Shown here: in pieces, positions 44,111-58,914 of the stretch
How positions within the stretch are numbered: the stretch's first letter is position 1
Layout of the letters: each line of letters begins with the position of its first letter
Origin: Clostridia bacterium
GTDB lineage: Bacteria; Bacillota; Clostridia; Oscillospirales; CAG-272
DNA length: 64,000 nt
Assembly (NCBI GenBank): GCA_017453205.1
Contig: JAFTKO010000021.1
Location: 62,001 to 126,000 of the forward strand
Direction of reading: 5' to 3'
The notes under the pieces: generated by a model
Seen by the model: only the letters and a program-made list of their open reading frames with translations
Databases searched by the model: none
What the model was told of the DNA's origin: nothing
Position numbers and translations under genes: made by a program

Positions 44111-46789
44111 TCATGCGTTTTTGGGCTTTGTCGAGGCTTTCTTTTTTCTGAATCTCAGCTTTCTGATCAGAATGTCTATCACAAAGAGTGCCACCGCGGC
44201 GATCAGCAGAGGAATGACATAGCTCAGCTTGTAGGTTGTGACCTCGTTTTTATCGTTTTCAAGGCTTGGGATTTCGCCAACCGTTGTACTTCCGTTGCCC
44301 CGCATAAACCGATAGATATTGAATTTATCAAAGGTCGCAAAGGCATTGTACTCGGGAAGATACGGGATCTCAAACGAGATGCTTGCAGTGTAGGTATGTC
44401 CCTCATAAGAATACGTGACATCGACCGTATAGGTTCCCGTGCTGTCCGTGGTCAAGGTGTAAAAATACTTGGTGGAATCAAAGGTCAGCGTTTTTGTTGC
44501 GGTTTTCCCGTTGGGATAGGTGATCTTTAGGGTCGTGGTTGCGGAGGGATTGAGAATACTCGGTACGATCTGGATATACGCATCATACTCGGTGCGCTCC
44601 ATATTCAAGGCGAACGGATAGTCTATTCTCTCGCCTGGCGTGTTGCTTACAAACATATTGGAAACAAATCTTGATTTATCCTCATTGCTCCAATATTTTG
44701 TCCACTCGCCCGAGAGACTGCCCGTAAAGCTTGCCACTCTGCCGTTGCCGTGTGATCGGTACGCATAGAGCGGAACCGTCTCTTGATAGCCGTTTGCTTT
44801 TTGATAGGTCACCGTCAGCGGGACCGTAGCGTCGTACTTTTCCATGGAGATGATAAAGCCCGAAACCGTGGGGAGCTTGGAAAAGCCTTGTACAATGCTG
44901 TCCTTATACTTGGCAATATTTACGCCCGCGTCCTTTTCGACAATCACGTTGCCGACGTCGTTTGCCATGTCGCCGAAAACGACATCCTCGACGCGCTCCG
45001 GGGTGGAGATTTCGTAGTATTTTCCCCCCTCGCCCGCGTTGACCACATTTTGCAGCTTGGTTCTGCCGTTCTGCCCGTCGGAGTTGATAAAGGTGTTGAT
45101 TGCCGAGACGGTGGTCCCTGTGTTAAAGAGATCCGCCGCGACCTCGACCGCGTCTCTTTCACTGTCAAAGCTGAAGCCGTCGGAGATCAGCATGACTTGA
45201 TTTTCCGAGAGGTTCATGGCACGAATGGTCTTTAAGGCTTCTTCCAAGCCGATCCCCATCTCGGTGCCGTGACCGGTGGTAAGAGAATCGATATAGGTGA
45301 TAAGCTCCTGCTTGCAGTCTTTCACCTTTTTGGGTGTCGGCGTCGGTGTATTAAATCTGATATCACCGTCGAAAGGAATCAGATATACATAATCATCGTC
45401 ATCCATAATCGATATCAGCTTGATGGCAGCCGTCTTGGCAATGGTGAACTTGGACGCCATAAACATACTGTGCGAAACGTCGAGGACGATGGTATAAAGT
45501 CTGCCGTCCCTGTCCGTATTGCCGTAGTTTACGGGAAGAAGCTCTTGGAATTTTTGGAAGATCGCATCGTCGGAATTGGTTTGAAGCCTTAGGTCTCCGA
45601 GTGTGATCAAGCTCTTGCCGTACTGGGAGACCACCATATCGAGGGCATCGATAAAGGCGTTGACGTGCTTGATCTCTCTGATATCGAGATTGGAGATGAC
45701 GATCTCGTCGTATACCACCAGCTCCTCCAGCATAAACGGAACTTGGTTATCTGAGGCAGTGACCACGTATGAATCGATCTCTGCGTAATCGCCGTAAACG
45801 CTCTCGATCAAGTCTTGATCCTCGGATTTTCCGGTGACCAGCAGGATCTTTTCTTTTCCTACAACGGTCTGTGTAAAGGTTCGGGTATTGTTATAGGGCG
45901 AAATATCATGATCGGTCACCAGCTCTGCCTTGTATTCAAAGGTATCCGCGACATCGGCGGGGAGCTGCATTCTGACCGTGGTCAGCCCCGTATCCGCCGT
46001 TATGACCGTGTATGCAAGCCTTTCATACGCAGCCTCGGCTTCCCCTTCGGTAGCTTGTGCCCTTGCATAAAGCTCGAGCATGACCTCGGTCTGTTCGGAG
46101 GACTGAATGAGAAATTTTACCTCATTTTCGTGCCCGAGATAGGTGGATTTGGCGTATTCCGCCTCGAGGAGCTGGACCTCGGTCTCGCCCTCTTTCAGTG
46201 TATTGTCAAGAAAGATCGTGTCGATTTTGATCCCGTTTTCCGTCAGCCTTTCCACGGTGGAGGCAATAGAGCCGGTGCTTTGGTTTACGGTATCGTTACC
46301 GTCGGTGATGAGGACGATTCGTTTGAGAGAATCGGTAGGAAAGAGTGTTTCGGTGTAATTGAGTGCGCTTACAATGTCGGTGGCGCTGTCGTCCACATTT
46401 GCCTCGGAAACACTCTTGAGCGCTCTGCCCGCAGGCGTAAGCACCACGCTGTCCTTGGCAAAGCAGACCACTCCCAAAGAGGAATTTTCCGGTAGGTTTT
46501 CCTTGATCTGTGCGATATATGCGTCGATCTCATCTAAATTTCTGTCAGAGGAATAGGAAACATCCGCCAGCACATAAACGGTGGTTTTGGTGAGCACACT
46601 GGTTGATGCAAGACCCGCCACCGCAAGGATGACAAGTGCGATGATGACGATATGTAAGCACAGTGACACCGTCCATCCCACGGTTTTGTTGTCCTTGTTT
46701 TTGATCAGAAAGAACGGGATGATGATTGCAAGCGCGAGCGGTATTGCCAAAAGGAGCAGATACGGATTATCGAAGCTGATATTTTTCAT
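44111..46789 (-). CDS. Membrane protein with two von Willebrand factor A domains
   Basis: An 892-aa protein with two N-terminal membrane segments (LLLLAIPLALAIIIPFF, LHIVIIALVILAVAGL), a first VWA-like domain with MIDAS DVSYS (VYVLADVSYSSDRN) and a second with DVSHS (YTIVLDVSHSMFMASK) plus TxxG and SDG loops (MLISDGFSF). Beta modules and a final membrane segment (LSYVIPLLIAAVALFVIDILI) with a basic tail (LRFRKKKASTKPK) complete it. The layout matches Bat/CoxE-type partners of MoxR ATPases. The start at 46789 overlaps the previous gene by 23 bp and is preceded by GGGGGG; upstream starts are rejected. Confidence 0.85.
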   Translation of the reverse strand: MKNISFDNPYLLLLAIPLALAIIIPFFLIKNKDNKTVGWTVSLCLHIVIIALVILAVAGLASTSVLTKTTVYVLADVSYSSDRNLDEIDAYIAQIKENLPENSSLGVVCFAKDSVVLTPAGRALKSVSEANVDDSATDIVSALNYTETLFPTDSLKRIVLITDGNDTVNQSTGSIASTVERLTENGIKIDTIFLDNTLKEGETEVQLLEAEYAKSTYLGHENEVKFLIQSSEQTEVMLELYARAQATEGEAEAAYERLAYTVITADTGLTTVRMQLPADVADTFEYKAELVTDHDISPYNNTRTFTQTVVGKEKILLVTGKSEDQDLIESVYGDYAEIDSYVVTASDNQVPFMLEELVVYDEIVISNLDIREIKHVNAFIDALDMVVSQYGKSLITLGDLRLQTNSDDAIFQKFQELLPVNYGNTDRDGRLYTIVLDVSHSMFMASKFTIAKTAAIKLISIMDDDDYVYLIPFDGDIRFNTPTPTPKKVKDCKQELITYIDSLTTGHGTEMGIGLEEALKTIRAMNLSENQVMLISDGFSFDSERDAVEVAADLFNTGTTVSAINTFINSDGQNGRTKLQNVVNAGEGGKYYEISTPERVEDVVFGDMANDVGNVIVEKDAGVNIAKYKDSIVQGFSKLPTVSGFIISMEKYDATVPLTVTYQKANGYQETVPLYAYRSHGNGRVASFTGSLSGEWTKYWSNEDKSRFVSNMFVSNTPGERIDYPFALNMERTEYDAYIQIVPSILNPSATTTLKITYPNGKTATKTLTFDSTKYFYTLTTDSTGTYTVDVTYSYEGHTYTASISFEIPYLPEYNAFATFDKFNIYRFMRGNGSTTVGEIPSLENDKNEVTTYKLSYVIPLLIAAVALFVIDILIRKLRFRKKKASTKPKNA

Positions 46790-48611
46790 AGCAATATACC
46801 CCCCAATCCGCAATAAATAAGATTGCAAGACAGATAAAGAGTACCATAATCGGATCGTACTCTCCGTCTATGTTTGCATAGGTTCTCTCTCCGAAAAGAG
46901 AAAACTCGTTTTCCTCGGTTGTCGGCTTGCTTTCCTCCGCATTGGCACTGGAATAGATACGGTACGTGGTTTCCTGCCCTGCCAAGGTCATACTAATTAC
47001 ATATGTACCGATCTCATCAAGCGTCAGCGTTGCGGTGGTTCCGTCGGCTTCTATGTAAAGGTCATCGCCCGAGGGGGATAGCACCTTTAGGTTTTCGGCA
47101 TTTGCAACGATATTGATGAGCGCATCCTCCCCGACGGTGTAGTTTGTTTTGTCAATGACATTGGGAAAGGAGTAGTCAAGCAGGTTGCGAAGCAGCATCA
47201 CAAAATCAGTCGAAAGGGCAAAATCCGACTCGTGAAGATCAAAGCCGAAAACAACTTGACGGTTGCCCAATCCGTTCTCTCCCGCAAATATCAGCGGATT
47301 TGAGTCATAGGAGAAAAGCGTGTAAAAATTGAGATACATTCCGCTGTACTTTACGTAATTCGTAATGTAAATGTCACTGCCGTCCACGCTGCGCAGAAGA
47401 TTGCGGACCTTGGTGGCGGTGGATTTTGATTTTTCTATCACATCGGCGTTGCTGAGCTCTGTTTTGCCTCTGACGCCAAAGCCGGAATTTTCAATGCTTT
47501 GGTCCGCATTGATGAGCCACACCGCGCCGTCGGGCAGCGTGCTTGGCTCATAGGAATCAAAAATGTAAAGTCCGTACTTTTCGGAAACCGTCTCATACTC
47601 CTCGGGTGTTACGGTTTTTACCTCGGAGTCCACGAGCGCATCGATGACAGCCTCAAAGAAAAATCCGGTTTCGCTGACGATGAGCGTGCTGTATGTCTTA
47701 TCGCTTTCCAAATTGTAGGTTGTAATGCGGTTATCAAGGAGATAACCGTCCTTGCTTGCAACCTCTACCGTAAAAGAATCAAAACGAACGCAAGGGCTGC
47801 TGAAGGACACCTGTGTCAACTCTCCCGTGTTGACCGCAACCGTGGAGGATGCCACCTTTTCGCCGTCAACGGAAAGCGTTACTTCCGGCTCGGCGGCTTT
47901 TGTGTAGGAGATGACCTTTGCCGTGACGTTGAGCTGACCGCCCGAGTGGGAGTATTCGACGTCAAACACGGCGTAATTTTCCGCGTCGTCGGTGCCGACA
48001 TCGATGATTTCGATATTTTCGTGCTTGGTATAGCTTTTGTCGGTAACCAAATAGATCAGCGAGGATGAGGACTTGTCAAACGCCTTTTGCGCCGCGCCGA
48101 GCAGATCGGCGTACTCGGCACTTGTATGGCTTGCCTGTGTACTGTTGATCAAGTCAATGGCAGAAGCCTTGCTTGTGACGGAATCAAAGACGGTGACCGT
48201 CTCATTGGACACGCAGATCAGAGAATAAGAGCTCCCGCTTTTGGCGTCCTTGATCACGTCAATGATCTCATCCTTTGCCTTTTCAAATCTCGTCTCCCTG
48301 CCCTCCTGCATATTCATACTGCTCGAGGCGTCCAGGATAAAGCAATAATTATTTGCGGCGCCCGGCAGTGTAAATACGGGACGGGCAATGGCAAGAGAAA
48401 CGACCGTTACCGTGAGTATCTGCAAGATCAGACTGATGATACCCGTCAGACCGCTGAGCGGATTTTTCTTTTTGAGAAATTTTTCGCTGAGCTGCCAAAG
48501 ATAGGTTGACGTTACCGTTTGCTCGGTATATTTGCTTTGCAGGATGTAAATGACAATGATGATCGGAATCGCGATCAGACCAAGCAGACCGAGAGGATTT
48601 GTAAAACTCAT
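46767..48611 (-). CDS. BatA-like membrane protein with VWA domain
   Basis: A 614-aa protein beginning FTNPLGLLGLIAIPIIIVIYIL, the BatA N-terminal module in which a membrane helix pair precedes the VWA domain. The VWA MIDAS is CFILDASSSMNMQEGRETRFEKAK. A second hydrophobic segment (LTGIISLILQILTVTVVSLAIA) lies before it, and the C-terminus ends in a membrane helix (YDPIMVLFICLAILFIADWGVYCYEKY). It overlaps the DUF58 gene by 4 bases (ATGA) and the next VWA gene by 23 bases. Probable metal-dependent scaffold acting with the MoxR chaperone-like ATPase. Confidence 0.87.
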   Translation of the reverse strand: MSFTNPLGLLGLIAIPIIIVIYILQSKYTEQTVTSTYLWQLSEKFLKKKNPLSGLTGIISLILQILTVTVVSLAIARPVFTLPGAANNYCFILDASSSMNMQEGRETRFEKAKDEIIDVIKDAKSGSSYSLICVSNETVTVFDSVTSKASAIDLINSTQASHTSAEYADLLGAAQKAFDKSSSSLIYLVTDKSYTKHENIEIIDVGTDDAENYAVFDVEYSHSGGQLNVTAKVISYTKAAEPEVTLSVDGEKVASSTVAVNTGELTQVSFSSPCVRFDSFTVEVASKDGYLLDNRITTYNLESDKTYSTLIVSETGFFFEAVIDALVDSEVKTVTPEEYETVSEKYGLYIFDSYEPSTLPDGAVWLINADQSIENSGFGVRGKTELSNADVIEKSKSTATKVRNLLRSVDGSDIYITNYVKYSGMYLNFYTLFSYDSNPLIFAGENGLGNRQVVFGFDLHESDFALSTDFVMLLRNLLDYSFPNVIDKTNYTVGEDALINIVANAENLKVLSPSGDDLYIEADGTTATLTLDEIGTYVISMTLAGQETTYRIYSSANAEESKPTTEENEFSLFGERTYANIDGEYDPIMVLFICLAILFIADWGVYCYEKYQLR

Positions 48612-49492
48612 TTCAATACCCCCAGATCCACCATATTGCCGAAGAACACATCGGAGAGCTTTTGATATGCGGGAATCAACATATAATAACCTCCGCGCGA
48701 CTCACAATAGTTCTTGATTCTTTCGGTCACATATTTCAGTGCCGCTTTGTATGCATTCACGCGGTCCCTGTCAATCTTTTTGCGAAAGAAGTTGCTTACG
48801 TTTTCCGAATCGAAAAGGTGCATTTTTCCTCGGAACTGCGGGTTTAACTCCTCGCGGGACAAAATTTGAACACAGAGGATATCCCTTTTTTGCTCGGCAA
48901 ACTTATCGATTGCCGACTCATAGTTTTCATCCGTGAGAAAATCCGATATGAGGATCGAATATCCGTCCCCCATTCCCACCTTTGATTGCAGGATCGCGTT
49001 GCCGATCGAAACATCGGAGGTAAATTCGATCTCATTGAGCTTATTGATATAATTCAAATAAGAATCCTTACCCACCATGCCGGATATGACCTCGTCCACT
49101 TGATCACCATGGATTGCGTATACCGATACCTTGTCCATTTCGCTGACCGAAAGATATGCAAATGCCGCCGCCATGCGGATTGCCTGGTCGGCCTTTTCGG
49201 GACTGCCGTGCTGCATCGAGCGGCTGGCATCAATGTAAATCTTGGTGTGCATTTGCCGCTCGTCAAGATAGAGCTTTTGATAAAGCTTATCAAATCTCGC
49301 ATACACGTTCCAGTCGATCTTAGAGATGTCATCGCCCGGAACATAGTCGCGATAATCGGCAAATTCGCACGAGGAACCGAAATTTTTGGATTGATGGTTT
49401 CCGCCAAACATACCGGCAACATTGTTTTTGAGTAACGTTTGCAGAGCTTCTATCTCCGAAAGAAACGCCTCATCTATTACCATTTTTCCCAT
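48608..49492 (-). CDS. DUF58 domain protein
   Basis: A 294-aa soluble DUF58 protein, the standard partner of MoxR ATPases. Landmarks are GSSCEFADYRDYVPGDDISKIDW (the DUF58 signature), the embedded VWA-like MIDAS IYIDASRSMQHG, and ILISDFLTDENYESA. The frame starts ATGGGAAAAATG, directly after the MoxR gene, and its stop overlaps the following start as ATGA, so translation is coupled on the downstream side. DUF58/MoxR/VWA systems are thought to assist metal insertion or membrane-protein maturation; the client here is unknown. Confidence 0.92.
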   Translation of the reverse strand: MGKMVIDEAFLSEIEALQTLLKNNVAGMFGGNHQSKNFGSSCEFADYRDYVPGDDISKIDWNVYARFDKLYQKLYLDERQMHTKIYIDASRSMQHGSPEKADQAIRMAAAFAYLSVSEMDKVSVYAIHGDQVDEVISGMVGKDSYLNYINKLNEIEFTSDVSIGNAILQSKVGMGDGYSILISDFLTDENYESAIDKFAEQKRDILCVQILSREELNPQFRGKMHLFDSENVSNFFRKKIDRDRVNAYKAALKYVTERIKNYCESRGGYYMLIPAYQKLSDVFFGNMVDLGVLK

Positions 49493-50500
49493 TTAGCGAA
49501 CCTTTTTTGTTTCCTTTATGATCATTGAAATGACGTCGTCTACCGTAAGCTTATCGTTGATGGCGGTGTAGTTGATCTTGATGCGGTGTCTCAAAACGGG
49601 ATATGCAAGGGCGTTGATATCCTCATAAGATACATTGTAGCGTCCGCTCATGAGTGCGCGTACCTTTGCGGCGGTGATCAGACCCTGCGCGGCACGGGGA
49701 GAGGCGCCGTACTTGACGTATTTCTTTGTGGATGCCGTGCTTGTTTCGAGCTCGGGATGGGTATTAGATACGAGATTTACGGTGTACGAAAGGACCTCGT
49801 CGACCACGGGAACAGCGGAGGCAAGCGCTCTCATATCGAGGATCTCCTTGCCGTTAATGACAGCCTCGGCGGTTTCCGCCATGGTGATCTGTGTCATTTT
49901 TACGATGGAGGAAAGCTCCTCCGCAGAGGGGAAACCGACGATCAGCTTAAACATAAAGCGGTCCATCTGTGCCTCGGGCAGGGGATAGGTACCGTCTTGC
50001 TCGATCGGGTTCTCGGTTGCAAGAACGAAAAAGGGCTCGTCGATTTTGTAGGAGGTGTTTGCAACGGTGACCTTATGCTCCTGCATGACCTCAAGCATTG
50101 CGGATTGCGTCTTGGGGGTTGCACGGTTGATCTCGTCGGCAAGCACAAGATTTGCAAAAATGGGGCCCGGGCGGAACTTGGTTACCAGCTTGCCGTTCTC
50201 GTCCTTTTCCACGATATTGGTGCCGGTCACGTCCGAGGGCATGAGGTCGGGGGTAAACTGGATGCGCGAAAACGGAAGGGAGAGCACCTTGCCGAGTGAG
50301 CGGACAAGTCTGGTCTTACCGACGCCGGGAACCCCCTCCAGAAGTACATTGCCTCCGGCAACAATGGCAATGATCACGTTTTCGATGATGTCTGTTTGAC
50401 CTACGACGTCCTTTTTCAGTTCGCTTTTTACTTTTGCGACCTTTTCGCTGAACATTTTTACTCTTTCCATTTCGGCGGTGTTGTTTTCTGTATGGTTCAT
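49493..50500 (-). CDS. MoxR-family AAA+ ATPase
   Basis: A 335-aa AAA+ ATPase with Walker A GVPGVGKT, Walker B LVLADEINRA, sensor region FFVLATENPIEQDGTYPLPEAQMDRFMFK and the C-terminal lid block ASPRAAQGLITAAKVRALMSGR, all diagnostic of MoxR. I prefer the ATG at 50498-50500 because GAGAGG precedes it. The ATG at 50518 overlaps the upstream stop (ATGA) and would add six residues; it cannot be excluded. Acts as a chaperone-like ATPase with the DUF58 and VWA proteins encoded just downstream. Confidence 0.95.
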   Translation of the reverse strand: MNHTENNTAEMERVKMFSEKVAKVKSELKKDVVGQTDIIENVIIAIVAGGNVLLEGVPGVGKTRLVRSLGKVLSLPFSRIQFTPDLMPSDVTGTNIVEKDENGKLVTKFRPGPIFANLVLADEINRATPKTQSAMLEVMQEHKVTVANTSYKIDEPFFVLATENPIEQDGTYPLPEAQMDRFMFKLIVGFPSAEELSSIVKMTQITMAETAEAVINGKEILDMRALASAVPVVDEVLSYTVNLVSNTHPELETSTASTKKYVKYGASPRAAQGLITAAKVRALMSGRYNVSYEDINALAYPVLRHRIKINYTAINDKLTVDDVISMIIKETKKVR

Positions 50501-50514
50501 GTTATCAAATCCTC

Positions 50515-52008
50515 TCATTCTTCATCTTCTTGATCAAATCCGCCATAAAGGATATCAAAATATTTCTCCATGGCTGCTTTTTCTTCATCGGTGTAATCGC
50601 TGTCCTGCAATTTGCCGAACATCAATGCGTAATATTTATCCAAGATCGTTCCGTATTCGACATATTGGTTGGTGTATGGGTCAAATACCATGTCGTCACT
50701 GCCGTAAACAGCGCCTCCGCCGATGGCACCGCCTCCGCCCTCATCACTGCCGCTTGATCCCGAGGAGTCACCGGAGGAGGACTCATAGAATTGCGGACGC
50801 TCAAATTTCGGCAATTGGCAACCGAACAGCTCGGAAAGTCGGGTCATTGCATATTCGCCCGTGCCGGTATTTTCCGCGTGCTGTGAAAGTGCTCCAAAGA
50901 GCTCACTGTTCAAAGCGGTAAAGGTCGCGTCAAGCTCTCTTTGCGTATCTGTAGCTCCGAGCGTCTCGGAAAGTGCCGAAAGCGTGGATAAGCCGTATAC
51001 GCGCGTTCCGTCCTCCTTGGTTTCGTTTGCGGTGGCAAGCCTTGTTAATACGGTACAAAGAGGATCGGTCGGTTCGATTTTTGACTTGGTCAGAGCCTCC
51101 GTGATATTTGAGCTGACCTTGATGAAAAGCACCTGTGTTTCGGTCACGGAATTTACAAGCGCAAGCTCGGTGCGAACATCCGTGATGTTCCCGCTGAATT
51201 TTTCCGACGCGTTGGCTGTGGGCCATTCATAATAGTTCAGCGCTTTTGCCAGTTGCTTGGTGCTGTCCGCATCATAGCTCCACAGCGCGTTCATCAGCTC
51301 CAACGCCGATGACGATAAGCCCGTTTGCTCATATATGGCATCCATTGCCTTGGAAAGTGATGCGTCTTTTTCGCTTTCGGTGGTTGCAAGCTTGAGCTCA
51401 TCCAACAGGTCATACAGAGATTGTGCGACATTTTCCCGATACGGAGACGCCATTTCGGAGGTCTCCACATGCTTTATCAGTTCCTCAAGCGCCGCGATTT
51501 GAAGCTCCGTGATGGCAAACGGCTCATCGGGGACAACGGGTGGAGGTGTTTCCTCCGGGGATAAAACAAAAGAAGCTGTAAATACCGCCGCACCGATCAT
51601 AAAACACAGGATATATATCCACAGCCTTTTGAAGGATATGCTCTTTTTGGGAACCGCGGCAAGAGATGCGTCCGCATCCTCACGCTGTAGCTCGTAGATG
51701 ATTCCTTCCTTGTCCTTATATGCCAGCATGGTCTGAACTTTTTCGTTTAGCCGATACTGACGGTCGAGCCTTTTTGCAAGGGTTTTGTCTGAGGTGTAAA
51801 GCAGAAAATACACTGCCGTTCCCATCAAAAGAATGACGGCAGCTCCGATTGCCAAAGCGAGGATCGGGGTGAATGCCAATACTTCAAATTTTGACAGCAA
51901 CAGTAGCATACCGGCACACAGAAGTCCAACGGCTACCCCTGCCAAAACAGATTTCAGCAAACGAATTTTTAAGGCTCTGCTTTTTAGCTTGGAAAAATTT
52001 TCACCCAT
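50515..52008 (-). CDS. Membrane protein opening the MoxR-VWA operon
   Basis: A 497-aa protein with two membrane helices (LKSVLAGVAVGLLCAGMLLLL, ILALAIGAAVILLMGTAVYFLL), a conserved-looking cytoplasmic stretch (LDRQYRLNEKVQTMLAYKDKEG), a third helix (LWIYILCFMIGAAVFTASFVL) and a large extracellular helical part ending in a Ser/Gly-rich region (SSSGDSSGSSGSDEGGGG) and a very acidic tail. The layout recalls DUF4175-like proteins that accompany MoxR operons, but the match is not certain. AAGGAG precedes the ATG by 5 nt. First gene after the operon promoter. Confidence 0.75.
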   Translation of the reverse strand: MGENFSKLKSRALKIRLLKSVLAGVAVGLLCAGMLLLLSKFEVLAFTPILALAIGAAVILLMGTAVYFLLYTSDKTLAKRLDRQYRLNEKVQTMLAYKDKEGIIYELQREDADASLAAVPKKSISFKRLWIYILCFMIGAAVFTASFVLSPEETPPPVVPDEPFAITELQIAALEELIKHVETSEMASPYRENVAQSLYDLLDELKLATTESEKDASLSKAMDAIYEQTGLSSSALELMNALWSYDADSTKQLAKALNYYEWPTANASEKFSGNITDVRTELALVNSVTETQVLFIKVSSNITEALTKSKIEPTDPLCTVLTRLATANETKEDGTRVYGLSTLSALSETLGATDTQRELDATFTALNSELFGALSQHAENTGTGEYAMTRLSELFGCQLPKFERPQFYESSSGDSSGSSGSDEGGGGAIGGGAVYGSDDMVFDPYTNQYVEYGTILDKYYALMFGKLQDSDYTDEEKAAMEKYFDILYGGFDQEDEE

Positions 52009-52180: not shown

Positions 52181-52197
52181 TTTACATAATTTTTACG
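52181..52197 (+). promoter_or_regulatory. Candidate PhoP-binding box upstream of pstS
   Basis: TTTACA (52181-52186) and TTTACG (52192-52197) repeat with an 11-bp period, the spacing and sequence (TT-x-ACA) of Firmicutes PhoP boxes. A perfect -10, TATAAT, lies at 52241-52246 with no recognisable -35, as expected of an activator-dependent promoter. The operon encodes its own PhoP/PhoR pair, which makes autoregulation plausible. Confidence 0.45.
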
Positions 52198-52281: not shown

Positions 52282-53217
52282 ATGAAAAAAGTATTGGCAC
52301 TCATTCTCACGGGCATTCTGATGATCACATCGGTTGCCGCATTCACATCCTGCGGCAGTTCCGAAAAGAACATTACGGTGGTCGTTCGTGAGCAAGGTAG
52401 CGGCACGCGTGAGGCATTTGACAAGGTGGTGACCGACGGCACACACTTCCTTGAAGAAAAGGACGCGGACGGCAAAAAAGTGTACAACACAACAATTACA
52501 GCTGTTCAGCAAACCAAGACCGGTACGGTGCTGTCCTCGGTGGCATCCGACAAGAACGCCATCGGTTACATTTCCCTCGGCTCGGTGGATGACAGCATCA
52601 ATGTCATCAAGGTAAACGGTGTTGTTCCCTCCGAGGAAACGGTTTTGAACGGAGACTACAAAATTCAGCGTCCCTTTGTGGTCATGACCAAGGCGGGACA
52701 GACCCTGACCGACAGGACCGCCGACTTTATGAACTATCTCAAAAGCGACGCCGCCAAGGCTCACTCCGAAGAGGCGGGATGTATCTTCCTAAGTGACGCA
52801 ACCCAACGCGCCAATGATGGTGACACCCCCATAGAAGTGGTTGCATATGAGAAGCAGGCGGCTCTGCCGACAGGCGACAAGATTGTCATTCGCGGCTCCA
52901 CCTCCATGGAAAAATTCATCAATTCCGCGGCAAAGGCTTACGCCGAGATGTACGGCGCGAAAGCCGAGGATATCTTTGATATTCAGCTGGAAGGCTCCTC
53001 GGTGGGACGGAAAGCGGTTGAGGATGACACAAAAGGAAATGTCATCGGTCTTTCATCGGCGGCGGTCGATCAAGATAACATTGACAGCTTGAAGGTCTGC
53101 CTGGATGCCGTTGTTGTGATCGTCAATAAGGAAAACACATCGGTCACCGACCTAACGCTCGGTCAGCTCTATGATATCTTCTCCGGAAAGATCACAAAAT
53201 TCTCAGAGTTAAACTGA
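52282..53217 (+). CDS. pstS: Phosphate-binding lipoprotein PstS, circularly permuted
   Basis: Captures phosphate for the Pst transporter. The 311-aa lipoprotein has lipobox FTSC (Cys24). Residues about 30-185 correspond to the half that is C-terminal in ordinary PstS: ITVVVREQGSGTREAF (Arg36, Ser40-Gly-Thr phosphate loop), IGYISLGSVDD, VNGVVPSEETVLNGDY, then PFVVMTK and FMNYLKSD. Residues about 201-311 correspond to the normal N-terminal half: IVIRGSTSMEKFINSAA, IQLEGSSVGRKAVEDDT, LDAVVVIVNKENTSVTDL and GQLYDIFSGKITKFSEL, ending exactly where the second half would normally begin. All binding loops are thus present in swapped order. AAGGAG precedes the ATG. Confidence 0.88.
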   Translation: MKKVLALILTGILMITSVAAFTSCGSSEKNITVVVREQGSGTREAFDKVVTDGTHFLEEKDADGKKVYNTTITAVQQTKTGTVLSSVASDKNAIGYISLGSVDDSINVIKVNGVVPSEETVLNGDYKIQRPFVVMTKAGQTLTDRTADFMNYLKSDAAKAHSEEAGCIFLSDATQRANDGDTPIEVVAYEKQAALPTGDKIVIRGSTSMEKFINSAAKAYAEMYGAKAEDIFDIQLEGSSVGRKAVEDDTKGNVIGLSSAAVDQDNIDSLKVCLDAVVVIVNKENTSVTDLTLGQLYDIFSGKITKFSELN

Positions 53218-53232
53218 TAAAAGGATGGAATT

Positions 53233-55071
53233 ATGACCGTTCATTCTACAAAAACAAAAGAAAAAATCGGAAAAGCGGTTTTTGCGGCAGCGGCAATCAT
53301 TTGCGTGATTGCCGTGGTCGCGATCTTTGCATTTCTGATTTACAAAAGCATTCCCGCGTTTGGAAAGCTGGGCATTCTTGAATTTATGTTTGGGGATCAT
53401 TGGTCTCCCGATCGTCTGGATACCTATGATTCCCCTCTGTCGGGTACCTACGGCATCTTTACCATGATCGTTGGCACGCTTGCCGCAACGTCAGGCGCGC
53501 TGTTGATTGGCGGTATCGTCGGTTATTTTACGGCGGTATTCCTTGCGTTTTACTGCCCTGCAAGACCAAAGCGTATTCTCACTTCGGTCATCCAAGTGTT
53601 GGCGGGGATCCCGTCGGTGGTGTACGGATTTTTCGGAATTGTGTTTCTTTTGCCAATGCTGTCAAGGATTGCCCCCAACAACGGGAGCGGGCTGCTTGCG
53701 ACCTCTATCATTCTCGGTATTATGATTTTACCGACCGTGGTGTCTCTTTCCGAGACCGGCTTGGAGGCTGTTCCGCGTGCTTACTATGAAGGCTCGGTCG
53801 CCATGGGAGCGACGCATTCCGAAACGGTCTTTCGCATTATGACTCCCGCGGCAAGCTCGAGCATTACGGCGTCTCTCGTTCTCGGTATCGGACGCGCCCT
53901 CGGCGAGACCATGGCGGTCGTCATGGTGGCGGGCAACGCCCCCACATACCCGAACGGATTGTTCGGCTCTTTCCGTGTGCTTACCTCCAACATTGTCATG
54001 GAAATGGGATATGCGGGCGAGGTACAGGAGGGAGCGTTGGTTGCCACGGGCGTGGTGCTGTTGCTGTTTGTACTGGTGGTCAATCTGATTTTCGGTGCCA
54101 TATCGGGTAGGAAGCCGGGAGCGGTCGTGGGCAAAAGAAAGGAGCGGCGTTTGGCAAAGGCTCGATGCTCCCGCGGTATACGCATCAAGGATACGATCGG
54201 TGCACTCGCCCACAAGCTGCACGCGGTGAAGCTCGGTCGGGGGATGGCGATCGGCTCCGGGATCCTGACGGGTGCGGTGCTTTTGTTGGTCATTGGCTTT
54301 ATTTTTATCAAGGGATTGCCGTATCTGCTTCAAAATCCCTCTCTGATATACGGCAAATATGAGTTTGGCAGTCACAATATCACCATTCTTCCCGCCATTG
54401 TGACCACGCTCTATGCGGTATTGATCAGTCTCCTCATCGCCATTCCCATTGGGGTCATGACAGCGATATTTCTCAATGAGTATGCCAAAAAAGAAAATAT
54501 TTTTGTCCGCCTTATCCGTTCTGCCATAGATATTTTGAGCGGCGTTCCGTCCATCGTTTACGGTTTGTTCGGTATGATCACTTTTGTCAAAATATTTGGC
54601 GGATCAAGTAATATCTTGGCGGGGGCACTGACGGTCAGCATCATGCTTTTGCCTATCGTTGTCCGCTCTACCGAGGAAAGCCTCAAATCGGTGGCTGACG
54701 CGATGAGAGAGGGAAGCTTGGCGCTTGGCGCGGGGAAGCTTCGCACCATATTCAAGATCGTGCTTCCCTCCGCCCTACCCGGTATTCTCTCTGCCATCAT
54801 TCTCAGTATGGGACGGGTGATCAGTGAGTCGGCGCCTTTCCTTTATACCATGGGCTCGGTCATTACGGCGGTACCGAAAGGTCTGTTTGACAGCGGCGCT
54901 ACACTTGCCGTGGCGCTTTATCAGCTATCGGGCGAGGGATGGTATATGAACCAAGCATACGCCACTGCGGTTGTGCTGATTGTAATTGTACTGGCGCTTA
55001 ATTTGCTTGCACAACAGTGTGCGGCAAGGTTGGGGCGCAAACTGAAAGGAGAAACCAATGGCAAAAAATAA
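53233..55071 (+). CDS. pstCA: Fused phosphate ABC permease PstC-PstA
   Basis: A 612-aa protein joining both phosphate permease subunits. Residues about 1-300 are PstC-like ([70 protein letters not shown]). After a basic linker ([16 protein letters not shown]) residues about 330-605 are PstA-like ([61 protein letters not shown]). Each half has its EAA-type ABC-contact loop. Normal bacteria encode two separate proteins of about 290-300 aa. AAAGGA precedes the ATG, 15 bp after pstS; the end overlaps pstB by 14 bp. Confidence 0.93.
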
Positions 55072-55846
55072 AACAGCGTCGCAAAGTGTTGCGTTCGGTC
55101 AAAACATCTCGGTCAAAAACGCCAATCTTTGGTATGGCGATTTTCAAGCCATTAAAAATATCAGTATGGAAATTCCCGAGCGGCAAGTTACTGCCTTCAT
55201 CGGTCCCTCGGGGTGTGGGAAATCCACGCTTTTAAAGTGCTTTAACCGCATGAACGATTTGGTGGACGGTTGCCGCGTGGAGGGCGAATTTCGCATCGGT
55301 GACGCGGATATTTACGGCAAGACCGATGTCAACGACCTCCGTCGGAACGTGGGCATGGTTTTCCAAAAGCCCAATCCCTTTCCCATGAGTGTCTACGACA
55401 ACATCGCTTACGGTCCCCGTACCTTCGGTATCCGCAAGCGTTCGGAGCTCGATCATATCGTGGAAACATCACTCAAGCAAGCCGCTATGTGGGAGGAGCT
55501 GAAGGACCGCCTTAACAAGTCCGCGCTCGGTCTTTCGGGCGGTCAGCAGCAACGGCTTTGTATTGCAAGAGCTTTGGCGGTGGCGCCGAAGATCATCCTC
55601 ATGGATGAACCTACCTCCGCGCTCGATCCCATTTCGACAGGTAAGATCGAGGAGCTTTGCGATGAACTGACAAAATCCACTACCATCGTCATCGTCACCC
55701 ACAATATGCAACAAGCCACGAGAATTTCCCACAAGACCGGCTTTTTTCTTCTCGGTGAGTTGGTTGAGTTTGGAAATACCGATGATATTTTTACTTCCCC
55801 CGTCGATGTACGCACGGAAAGATATATTACCGGTCGTTTCGGTTGA
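55058..55846 (+). CDS. pstB: Phosphate ABC transporter ATPase PstB
   Basis: Energises phosphate import. The 262-aa ATPase has Walker [10 protein letters not shown], the Q-loop [21 protein letters not shown] typical of PstB, signature [14 protein letters not shown], Walker [16 protein letters not shown] and the switch His in [21 protein letters not shown] precedes the ATG, which lies within the end of the permease gene, so the two are co-translated. Confidence 0.97.
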
Positions 55847-55889: not shown

Positions 55890-56546
55890 ATGTCCGCAAG
55901 AAAACAATTTGAAGAAGAGCTGGAAGAGCTGAAAACAGAGCTTGTTGAAATGTGCCGTCTGACAGCAGATATGATTGCAAACGCTACCGCCGCCCTTGTT
56001 ACCTTTGACCGTGAGCTTGGCAAGAGCATCGGAGAGCTTGACAAGCGTGTTGACGAATACGAAATGGATATTGAAAAGCGCTGTATGCGCATTATGATCC
56101 GTCAACAGCCTGTGGCAAAGGATTTCCGCGAGGTGTCCACTGCACTGAAAATGATTACCGATATCGAACGCTTTGGCGATCAAGCGAGTGACATTGGCGA
56201 CCTTGTCTATACCATGCCGGGTGACAGCTATATCAAAAAGCTGACTCACATAACCGCTATGGGGGAGCTCGCCGTGCGGATGGTTAAGGAGAGTGTCAAC
56301 TCCTTTATCCGCAATGACGAAGTGCTTGCCGATGAGGTCATTGCACTGGATGACCAAATGGATGACCTGTTTGTCACGGTGCAGGACGAGCTGATCGAGC
56401 TCATACGGCTGGACGGAAAAAGCAACGGCGATCAAGCAATTACCTTGATGATGGTTGCAAAATATCTGGAACGCATCGGCGACCACGCGGTCAATGTTGC
56501 CGAGTGGACAAAATACAACGAAACGGGGGTACACCAAAAATTCTGA
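55890..56546 (+). CDS. phoU: Phosphate signalling protein PhoU
   Basis: Links the Pst transporter to the PhoR kinase and represses the Pho response when phosphate is abundant. The 218-aa helical protein has two PhoU repeats with the E/D-rich metal motifs (ALKMITDIERFGDQASDIGDLV and MMVAKYLERIGDHAVNVAEW). GGAGG precedes the ATG by 7-8 nt. Its stop overlaps an ATG in front of the response regulator. Confidence 0.96.
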   Translation: MSARKQFEEELEELKTELVEMCRLTADMIANATAALVTFDRELGKSIGELDKRVDEYEMDIEKRCMRIMIRQQPVAKDFREVSTALKMITDIERFGDQASDIGDLVYTMPGDSYIKKLTHITAMGELAVRMVKESVNSFIRNDEVLADEVIALDDQMDDLFVTVQDELIELIRLDGKSNGDQAITLMMVAKYLERIGDHAVNVAEWTKYNETGVHQKF

Positions 56547-56557
56547 TGAGGAGACCT

Positions 56558-57214
56558 ATGATTTATATCGTTGAGGACGACGAAGGTATCCGCGAGGTAT
56601 ACGAGGGCGCGTTCGAGGCAGAATACAACATTCGCATGTTTGAGTGCGGAAACGATTTTTTTGAGGTCTTTTCGGGGGCACATCCCGATTTGATCATTCT
56701 TGATATCATGCTTCCCGACATGGACGGCTACACGATCCTAACAAAGATCCGCGAGAGCAACGAGCGTGTGCCTGTCATCATCGTCAGCGCAAAATCCGAT
56801 GAGATCAGCTTTGTTAAGGGACTCAACAAGGGGGCGGATGACTATATGTCAAAGCCCTTTTCCATCCTTGAGCTGATGGCACGTGTCAAGACCAACCTTC
56901 GCCGCGCCAATCTCTATGTGTCGGCGGCGGGCGGTTTTACGGTTGACCGCAATACGTATAAGATCCGCTTTGACGGAAACGACCTGGGACTGACTCTCAA
57001 GGAGTATAAGCTGTTGGATCTGCTCATAGGCAAGTCGGGCATCACGGTAGAACGTGACACCTTGTTCCGCGAGGTATGGGGGGAGGATTACATGGGGGAG
57101 ACCAGAACACTTGACATGCACATTGCCTCCCTGCGCGAAAAGATCAAAGAAGCAGGAGGCGGTGACTGTATCGTGACGGTGCGCGGTATCGGATACCGAT
57201 TTGAAAGCAAATGA
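56558..57214 (+). CDS. phoP: PhoP-type OmpR-family response regulator
   Basis: A 218-aa response regulator: receiver domain with acidic pair VEDDE, phospho-acceptor Asp49 in LIILDIMLPDMDGY, the lysine in VSAKSDE, and a C-terminal winged helix (LTLKEYKLLDLLIGKSG, RDTLFREVWGEDYMGETRTLDMHIASLREKI, VRGIGYRFE). The ATG at 56558 has GAGGAG at 4-5 nt; an ATG at 56546 overlapping the phoU stop would add four residues. Placed after pst-phoU and before a histidine kinase, it is the probable Pho regulator of the operon. Confidence 0.93.
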   Translation: MIYIVEDDEGIREVYEGAFEAEYNIRMFECGNDFFEVFSGAHPDLIILDIMLPDMDGYTILTKIRESNERVPVIIVSAKSDEISFVKGLNKGADDYMSKPFSILELMARVKTNLRRANLYVSAAGGFTVDRNTYKIRFDGNDLGLTLKEYKLLDLLIGKSGITVERDTLFREVWGEDYMGETRTLDMHIASLREKIKEAGGGDCIVTVRGIGYRFESK

Positions 57215-58914
57215 AAAAGATGATATTTTTACGGGTCTTTCTTTTGCTCTTCTTTTCGGTGGCGTTTGTGTTTGCGGTCGGTCTTTGGGCAGTCCACCAA
57301 AACAGTCAAGCGCTCATTGCCGAAAGACTGACTGTGGAAGCCGAAATGCTGACCTGTATGATTCGATCGGAAAACGATATCGAGCGGCTCCGAGAATACC
57401 AACCCCGGCATGAAACCCGAATTACCGTGGTTCGGGAGGACGGAACTGTCTTATACGAAAGCAGTATCGCGGAGAATCCCGGAAATCACGCCGATCGAGA
57501 AGAGATCATTTTTGCACTTGCGGGAACGCCTCGGGCGGTAGAACGGTATTCCGAGACCTTTGGCTGTAAATTGACCTACTACGCCGTAAGCACAACTTTG
57601 GAAAACGGAGAGATGATCGTTCTCCGCGTTGCGGTTCACAGCAGTGAAATATCATCATATTTTGCCGCCATGATCCCTTTTTTATTGCTTGTGCTGGTAC
57701 TGTCTCTTGCCATTTCCGGAGTGCTGTCCAACCGACTTTCCAACAGCCTTTCCGAGAAAGTTCGCGAGGTTGCCACCAGCTTGCGTTCTTTGAGAGATGG
57801 CAAGTACGAGCCCATAAAAACCGATAGCGGCGAGGCGGAGTTTTACGCGGTGTTTTGTGAGATTAACGAATTGAATGAAAGCACGCACTCACACATTCGG
57901 ACCGAGGAGCAGGAACGGGAAAAGCTCAATGCCGTGCTTGATAATGTCTCTCAAGGCATCATTGCGTTGGATCCCGCAGAGAACATTGCCTTTGCCAACA
58001 ACAGTGCCCTTGAAATGTTTGGAGGAACACGGCAGGATATCGGAAAACAGCTGATCTACTTGATCGAGGATTCCGCACTCTGCCGCAAAATGGGGAAGCG
58101 TATGAACGAGGGCGGCAGCTTTGAATATTCTCTCGGCGGCAGAGAGCTTGTAATCGCCGTGCGGCGCATTTCCGATGAAACACTTTCGGATGTCATATCT
58201 TCTATCATTATCGTGACCGACATTACCAAAGAAAAGGGCATTGCAAAGGAAAAAAGCGACTTCTTTGCCAATGCCTCCCATGAGCTGAAAACCCCTATTA
58301 CCGTGATGCAGGGGATGGCAGAGCTGATCCTTTCCAAAGAGGAATTGGATGACTCCTCAAAAAAACAGGTGCAACGCATCCACAAAGAAAGCTTGCGAAT
58401 GGCGGGACTGATCTCGGATATGTTGAATCTCAGCAGTTTGGAGCGTCATGAGGAAGAACCTACCGCCGTTCCCGTAGACCTTCGCGCCGTTGCCGACGAA
58501 GTGGTTTCCGAGCTTGCCTCCGCGTGTACGGCAAAAAATATCACCGTAGAGGTACTGGGCGAGGGCAAGGTGCGGGCTGATGCAAAGAAGATATATGAAT
58601 TGATCGAAAACCTCTGCTCCAACGCCGTAAACTATAACAAGGAGAACGGTTCCATACATATTGACATTACTCCAAGCAAAGACCGAACCGTGCTTACCGT
58701 GTCCGATACAGGTATCGGCATTGCCAAGGAGCATTTGCCAAGGCTTTGCGAACGCTTTTACCGTGTCGATAAATCCCGCTCCAAAAAGACGGGCGGTACG
58801 GGACTGGGACTCGCTATTGTCAAGCACATTTGCGCCCTGTACAACGCCGACCTAAAGATTGAAAGTGAGCTTGGTATCGGAACGGTTGTGAGAATCTCAT
58901 TCCCGAACGAATGA
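57211..58914 (+). CDS. phoR: PhoR-type sensor histidine kinase
   Basis: A 567-aa membrane kinase: N-terminal helix (FLLLFFSVAFVFAVGLWAV), extracellular domain of about 120 residues, second helix (IPFLLLVLVLSLAISGVL), HAMP-like linker, PAS domain (LNAVLDNVSQGIIALDPAENIAF), HisKA with ANASHELKTPITVMQGM (His near 357), and HATPase with NLCSNAVNYN, VSDTGIGI and GTGLGLAIVKHI. It starts on ATGA overlapping the phoP stop. The domain order is that of PhoR kinases. Confidence 0.94.
   Translation: MKKMIFLRVFLLLFFSVAFVFAVGLWAVHQNSQALIAERLTVEAEMLTCMIRSENDIERLREYQPRHETRITVVREDGTVLYESSIAENPGNHADREEIIFALAGTPRAVERYSETFGCKLTYYAVSTTLENGEMIVLRVAVHSSEISSYFAAMIPFLLLVLVLSLAISGVLSNRLSNSLSEKVREVATSLRSLRDGKYEPIKTDSGEAEFYAVFCEINELNESTHSHIRTEEQEREKLNAVLDNVSQGIIALDPAENIAFANNSALEMFGGTRQDIGKQLIYLIEDSALCRKMGKRMNEGGSFEYSLGGRELVIAVRRISDETLSDVISSIIIVTDITKEKGIAKEKSDFFANASHELKTPITVMQGMAELILSKEELDDSSKKQVQRIHKESLRMAGLISDMLNLSSLERHEEEPTAVPVDLRAVADEVVSELASACTAKNITVEVLGEGKVRADAKKIYELIENLCSNAVNYNKENGSIHIDITPSKDRTVLTVSDTGIGIAKEHLPRLCERFYRVDKSRSKKTGGTGLGLAIVKHICALYNADLKIESELGIGTVVRISFPNE

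Follow-up and report, generated by a model that had tools for sequence, protein, structure and literature searches.

A pstS gene with swapped halves in a clostridial pst operon apparently represents a widespread, circularly permuted subfamily of phosphate-binding lipoproteins

Does the gene located in front of a phosphate permease in a stretch of clostridial DNA encode a PstS protein whose two halves have changed places, and if so, is the product a working binding protein with relatives elsewhere or an accident of the assembly? The stretch analyzed here (the window) comprises 64,000 nucleotides of contig JAFTKO010000021.1 of a Clostridia bacterium. The open reading frame in question (52282..53217, plus strand) extends from an ATG at 52282 to a TGA at 53215-53217, is preceded by the Shine-Dalgarno-like sequence AAGGAG, and encodes 311 amino acids with a lipoprotein-like start. 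A signal peptide ending in the putative lipobox cysteine Cys24 (52282..52353; the lipobox was assigned by inspection) is followed by a segment that corresponds to the C-terminal part of ordinary PstS (residues 29-170, 52366..52791) and contains the RxxxSGT anion loop (52387-52407). A linker (residues 171-198, 52792..52875) leads from the old C-terminus to the old N-terminus and thereby to a segment of the N-terminal type (residues 199-311, 52876..53214), in which the GSTS motif is located (52894-52905). All of these features are on the plus strand; the two segments were delimited by half-model matches, and the designation as a circularly permuted, phosphate-binding lipoprotein-like PstS relies on profiles, PDB matches, and a set of relatives (A1).

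Both family models recognized the protein in two pieces. PF12849 matched with 84.5 bits (gathering cut-off 27), its best stretch placing residues 193-309 on positions 4-125 of the 267-position profile. TIGR02136 reached a total of 133.5 bits, which is below the curated cut-off of 206.6, and its best stretch placed residues 27-168 on positions 160-293 of 295. The order described by TIGR02136 for ordinary PstS, the N-half followed by the C-half, is not found in the window protein, in which the C-half precedes the N-half, and the low score would be a consequence of this swap. Because the family model in ordinary order under-scores the protein, annotation can miss or misname proteins of this kind.

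The comparison with proteins in the PDB gave the same picture. Nine distinct PDB sequences were matched by the window protein (phmmer), and the two next-best after 4h1x, 4q8r and 4gd5, were aligned residue by residue. In 4q8r, chain residues 6-113 are matched by residues 201-310 of the window protein and chain residues 113-232 by its residues 24-157, and 4gd5 likewise shows two swapped stretches. These ordinary clostridial-type proteins (TIGR02136; 4q8r, 4gd5) consist of the same halves and carry the same phosphate motifs as the window protein. The PDB entry 4exl ("PstS 1") was also matched (E 1.5e-13), but in two stretches. The best match, 4h1x ("Phosphate-binding protein pstS 2"), which we take to be a Streptococcus pneumoniae protein, has the same swapped order over the whole chain and is collinear with the window protein in a single stretch, residues 26-309 of the latter aligning to positions 6-263 of the chain (E 5.8e-31), with gaps opposite extra residues of the window protein in the linker and behind SGTREAF. 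When a profile was built from 14 permuted relatives, it matched 39 distinct PDB sequences, among which 4h1x alone had a listed stretch spanning both halves (23-284 to 5-264, E 8.8e-89). The 4h1x protein probably forms one clamshell. The first-pass annotation had regarded a collinear alignment with a known PstS as evidence against a permutation; such an alignment does exist with 4h1x, but only because the halves of this chain are swapped as well when compared with 4q8r and 4gd5.

The 14 proteins of A1 were selected for matching the window protein over both halves in a single pass. Invariant in all 14 rows are C24, R36, S40, G41, T42, G205, S206, S208, and S239. Apart from the cysteine, these are the phosphate-loop residues of both lobes, and all of them are present in the window protein when aligned to 4q8r. 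Two claims of the first-pass annotation, that the C-half comes first and that the phosphate loops are kept, are thus borne out, the former by the swapped PF12849, TIGR02136, 4q8r, and 4gd5 matches (the halves had been proposed for separate alignment to PstS structures) and the latter by the invariance of the ligand motifs of both lobes in A1. At the level of sequence, the window protein is a true circular permutation of PstS, with the same halves swapped, the old termini joined, and one new opening.

The position of this opening can be estimated from PhoX of X. citri. According to the available excerpts of PMC5439949, domain I of PhoX comprises residues 26-100, 252-265, and 277-340 and harbors both termini, domain II comprises residues 101-251, the hinge strand extends from residue 93 to 108, and the ligands are S34, S62, D80, R159, G164, T165, and N201. 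The spacing of R36, G41, and T42 in the window protein is the same as that of R159, G164, and T165 given in these excerpts. With R36 set to R159 by the RxxxSGT spacing, the new N-terminus falls at approximately PhoX residue 150 and thus within domain II as delimited there. A cut exactly at the inter-lobe hinge, as first suggested, is to be rejected; in the register of the excerpted PhoX description (PMC5439949), the opening lies inside lobe II. By analogy to these parts of the PhoX structure, both new termini of permuted PstS should be located in lobe II and the linker should close lobe I. The linker is 28 residues long in the window protein, compared to a median of 13 across the permuted set. 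The topology further implies that the lipid anchor should have moved to lobe II.

We consider it very probable that the gene encodes a working phosphate-binding Pst lipoprotein that is naturally permuted, is anchored via lobe II, and belongs to a large subfamily of single origin inherited with its own permease lineage. The basis for this reading is the order of the halves, motif conservation, purifying selection, the operon, the distribution, and the grouping of the permuted rows into a single clade in both sampled trees; the fold of the window protein, phosphate binding, the anchor position, Pho control, and the route of origin are what we infer. The permuted chain would fold as the same two-lobed clamshell and bind phosphate between the lobes. 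Its old termini, both in lobe I, would be joined by the linker, and the new termini would lie in lobe II, immediately ahead of the strand leading into the RxxxSGT phosphate loop. Phosphate would be handed to PstC-PstA-PstB under Pho control, with the lipid anchor hanging from lobe II. The subfamily, found in Clostridia and some lactic acid bacteria, would have arisen once and been passed on together with a permease lineage of its own ever since. The most likely route is an in-frame tandem duplication from which the N-half at the front and the C-half at the end were later lost.

Homologues with the same order in other Clostridia, for which a search had been proposed, were found in many genomes. 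A permuted-profile search combined with viewed loci gave permuted pstS genes in at least 96 of the 394 genomes of the window's order, its own genome included. Two of these 96 (G263 and G371, with the loci L245 and L263) have a permuted pstS with an interrupted frame. In G211, the gene is cut by the contig end and its permuted order is undecided. Some match to the permuted profile was obtained in 255 of the 394 genomes, those beyond the permuted ones being half or weaker matches. Among 69 further regions that were fetched (68 from the order search and one, L267, from the phylum search), 66 were permuted in one frame, two were permuted with an interrupted frame, and one was cut. In the sample of the window's phylum, a permuted pstS was present in at least 18 of 398 genomes. 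The order and phylum counts are lower bounds, as permuted genes cut at contig ends may have been hidden behind the capped match lists. Scanning a sample of the class with TIGR02136 revealed swapped pairs in 22 of 118 genomes according to the match table (loci were viewed for G000 and G048). Of 396 loci on contigs of named genomes, the best 80 were viewed; since they were picked by similarity to permuted proteins, the proportion carries no meaning. Both halves were in permuted order in 79 of them (L034 being cut within the second), and the remaining one is cut behind its first half. Among the named organisms with a permuted pstS are Ruminococcus bicirculans, Peptoniphilus, Anaerococcus, Anaerosphaera, Gemmiger, Emergencia, Streptococcus, and Granulicatella; native streptococcal genes are those of S. 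halichoeri (L066) and S. hillyeri (L104). Of 35 genomes from the genus to which the window belongs, 7 matched the window protein; many of the genomes are incomplete, but G030 (97% complete) was also without a match. The window type of pstS is patchily distributed within this genus.

Several loci deviate from the simple arrangement. In the window's genus, L010, L011, L022, and L023 encode a second permuted PstS type accompanied by separate pstC and pstA genes, and G021 and G034 contain both permuted types. Two adjacent, separate permuted pstS genes per operon were seen in L043, L069, L096, and L098. The genome G850 encodes an ordinary PstS at another place in addition to the permuted one. L068 and L100 are located on contigs of metagenome-assembled genomes titled Helicobacteraceae or Helicobacter and are placed among clostridial rows in the tree, possibly due to mis-binning or transfer. 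One scan of viral contigs retrieved no relative.

For the phylogenetic analysis, 182 rows were assembled (135 permuted, 43 ordinary, and four units of proteins with the order N-C-N-C). Sixteen named loci were left out of this set (11 duplicates, the divergent L019, L020, and L028, and the contig-cut L034 and L037), as were seven frames in which one half was incomplete or absent (L082 twice, L060, L159, L166, L189, and L190). The PstS tree was calculated from 88 rows with the halves set in a common order, namely 42 of the 135 permuted rows, 42 of the 43 ordinary rows (L167 omitted), and the four N-C-N-C units, and the PstC tree from 83 of the same loci whose PstC stretch measured 170 amino acids or more. 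Neither sample is even, the ordinary rows being mostly best matches to TIGR02136 or to a half of A1 and the permuted loci including the best 80 of 396. The 42 permuted PstS rows formed one clade (98/92), present in 99% of 200 bootstrap trees, and the PstC sequences encoded beside permuted pstS formed one clade as well (42 of 83 rows, 100/97, 100% of bootstrap trees); in both cases, the bootstrap was still unsettled at the end of the search. The nearest ordinary rows differ between the two trees. These results fit a single origin of permuted PstS and its inheritance together with the adjacent PstC as an operon.

Alternatively, the permuted order might have arisen several times independently at the same cut. 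In favor of this, a FastTree of all 182 rows needs two changes rather than one, owing to L024, an ordinary row on a long branch that was placed among the permuted rows. The PstS tree contains further long branches, namely L016 and the stem below the clade of the window, which also leaves some room for repeated origins. However, the careful PstS tree and the tree of PstC, a different protein, each recovered the single clade described above, and we regard several origins as improbable.

Two genomes of one genus contain single open reading frames encoding an in-frame PstS-PstS tandem with the order N-C-N-C (L154 in G707:C1 and L155 in G726:C92, 544 and 531 amino acids, respectively); in G707, the tandem is followed by pstC, pstA, pstB, and phoU. 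The inner C1-N2 part of these proteins is in permuted order, but both outer halves are kept and the tandems belong to a different branch of the tree than the permuted clade. They are the kind of intermediate that the duplication route needs and show that it exists, not that it was ancestral. A direct descent of permuted PstS from the N-C-N-C fusions seen here is not supported by the PstS tree, in which the N-C-N-C rows do not stand beside the permuted clade. Beside the nearest ordinary rows of that tree (L181 and L182), no tandem pstS was found, each having a single pstS.

Directly downstream of pstS in the window, a single gene encodes a fused PstC-PstA permease (53233..55071, plus strand, 612 amino acids), in which TIGR02138 matched residues 10-290 and TIGR00974 residues 345-599, both over the cut-off. 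The fused permease to which the first-pass annotation had seen pstS adjoined is therefore present. Its further suggestion, that the order of the halves might track permease fusion, did not hold as a rule. With permease-matching frames of at least 440 amino acids counted as fused, 111 of the 131 permuted loci had separate pstC and pstA genes and 13 had a fused gene, while six were cut by the locus end and one was without a permease seen; the corresponding numbers for the 43 ordinary loci were 37 separate, two fused, and four without a permease seen. The six cut loci and the five without permease (one permuted, four ordinary) were left undecided. The 13 fused permuted loci formed one clade of 14 in the FastTree together with L033, whose frame is open to the locus end, and two more fused permuted loci (L200 and L202) were among the 69 later regions, outside the tree. 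The PstC-PstA fusion looks like a later, local event that is not tied to the permutation.

The fused permease gene is followed on the plus strand by pstB, encoding the ATPase (55058..55846, TIGR00972 over the cut-off), and phoU (55890..56546, TIGR02135 over the cut-off). Next are the genes for a PhoB/PnpR-type response regulator (56504..57214, TIGR02154 with 167 bits, under the cut-off of 296.2) and a PnpS/PhoR-type histidine kinase (57211..58914, NF046044 with 301 bits, under the cut-off of 400), both on the plus strand. Ordinary PstS loci are, like the permuted ones, also found in pst operons. The proximity of pstS to phoU and the phoBR-like pair would suit a protein whose main task is no longer binding for the transporter but phosphate sensing or a role at the surface, and the motif SRxL of distant relatives is replaced by SAAV in the window protein, SVAV in L006, and SAEV in L007. 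Such a change of role is nevertheless hardly to be expected for a gene that stands directly before the permease and ATPase genes in a genome (73% complete) in which no second PF12849 gene was found.

For the preferred transporter role, a Pho-box-like direct repeat (TTTACA-N5-TTTACG, TTTACATAATTTTTACG; 52181..52197, plus strand) ends 84 bp before the pstS start codon. It has three mismatches in 17 positions to the S. pneumoniae Pho-box, given as TTTACACAATCTTTACA in the accessible part of PMC4913102. The degenerate pattern TTTACA-N5-TTTACR, drawn up with the window site already in view, was found upstream of pstS in 41 of 134 permuted, 6 of 43 ordinary, and none of two tandem-fused loci; single-base shuffles of the same 179 upstream regions contained a mean of 0.05 matches per whole set. 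The pst operon of the window would accordingly be under Pho control.

An artefact has to be considered in an assembly that comprises 44 contigs and is 73% complete, all the more as adjacent pstS genes and fused tandems are known from other genomes. The seemingly permuted frame could then stem from a misassembly, from a frameshift, or from part of a tandem array in which two ordinary pstS genes stood next to each other. Against this, the window pstS has its own signal peptide, and no further half-copy of pstS is present within 1.5 kb on either side (locus L003), nor was another PF12849 gene detected in the genome. The same order recurs in many independent assemblies, named isolates among them. 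In comparison with L004, L005, and L119, pN was 0.13-0.17 and pS 0.67-0.76; pN well below pS indicates that the gene is under purifying selection and not broken. An artefact is extremely improbable on these grounds. A chance fusion of half-domains from different proteins with loss of the PstS clamshell, for which the sole point is that family models see the protein as two pieces, deserves practically no credence, since both pieces are PstS halves meeting at one cut point, the motifs of both lobes are invariant in A1, and the solved protein 4h1x is collinear with the window protein.

The naturally permuted PstS thus apparently forms a widespread subfamily of single origin that is already represented in the PDB. 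The pneumococcal Pst1 and Pst2 systems are called "evolutionarily distinct" in the accessible part of PMC4913102, and the string "permut" does not occur in the main text of this paper. Among the listed titles and abstract starts of the open-licence PMC literature, no description of a permuted PstS was found, and no paper on 4h1x was retrieved there; that this chain is permuted may already have been remarked upon in other sources.

Circular permutation is uncommon in natural proteins. The present case concerns a transporter binding protein and is replicated across many Clostridia; one relative has been solved, fused tandems of a related kind exist, and at least one genome encodes an ordinary PstS besides the permuted one. 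It allows one to ask whether docking on the permease depends on where the termini and the lipid anchor are located. It is conceivable, if rather doubtful, that one event in an ancestor within the Bacillota shifted the anchor out of lobe I into lobe II and gave rise to a Pst lineage whose permease adapted to the new docking, so that permuted and ordinary PstS can no longer replace each other. If this were true, the agreement between PstS order and the PstC clade (42 of 42 permuted rows) would reflect co-adaptation and not only linkage.

Upstream of the pst operon, positions 44111-50518 of the window carry a run of genes on the minus strand whose products resemble, by inspection, what we take to be a MoxR ATPase, a DUF58 protein, and von Willebrand-type membrane proteins.
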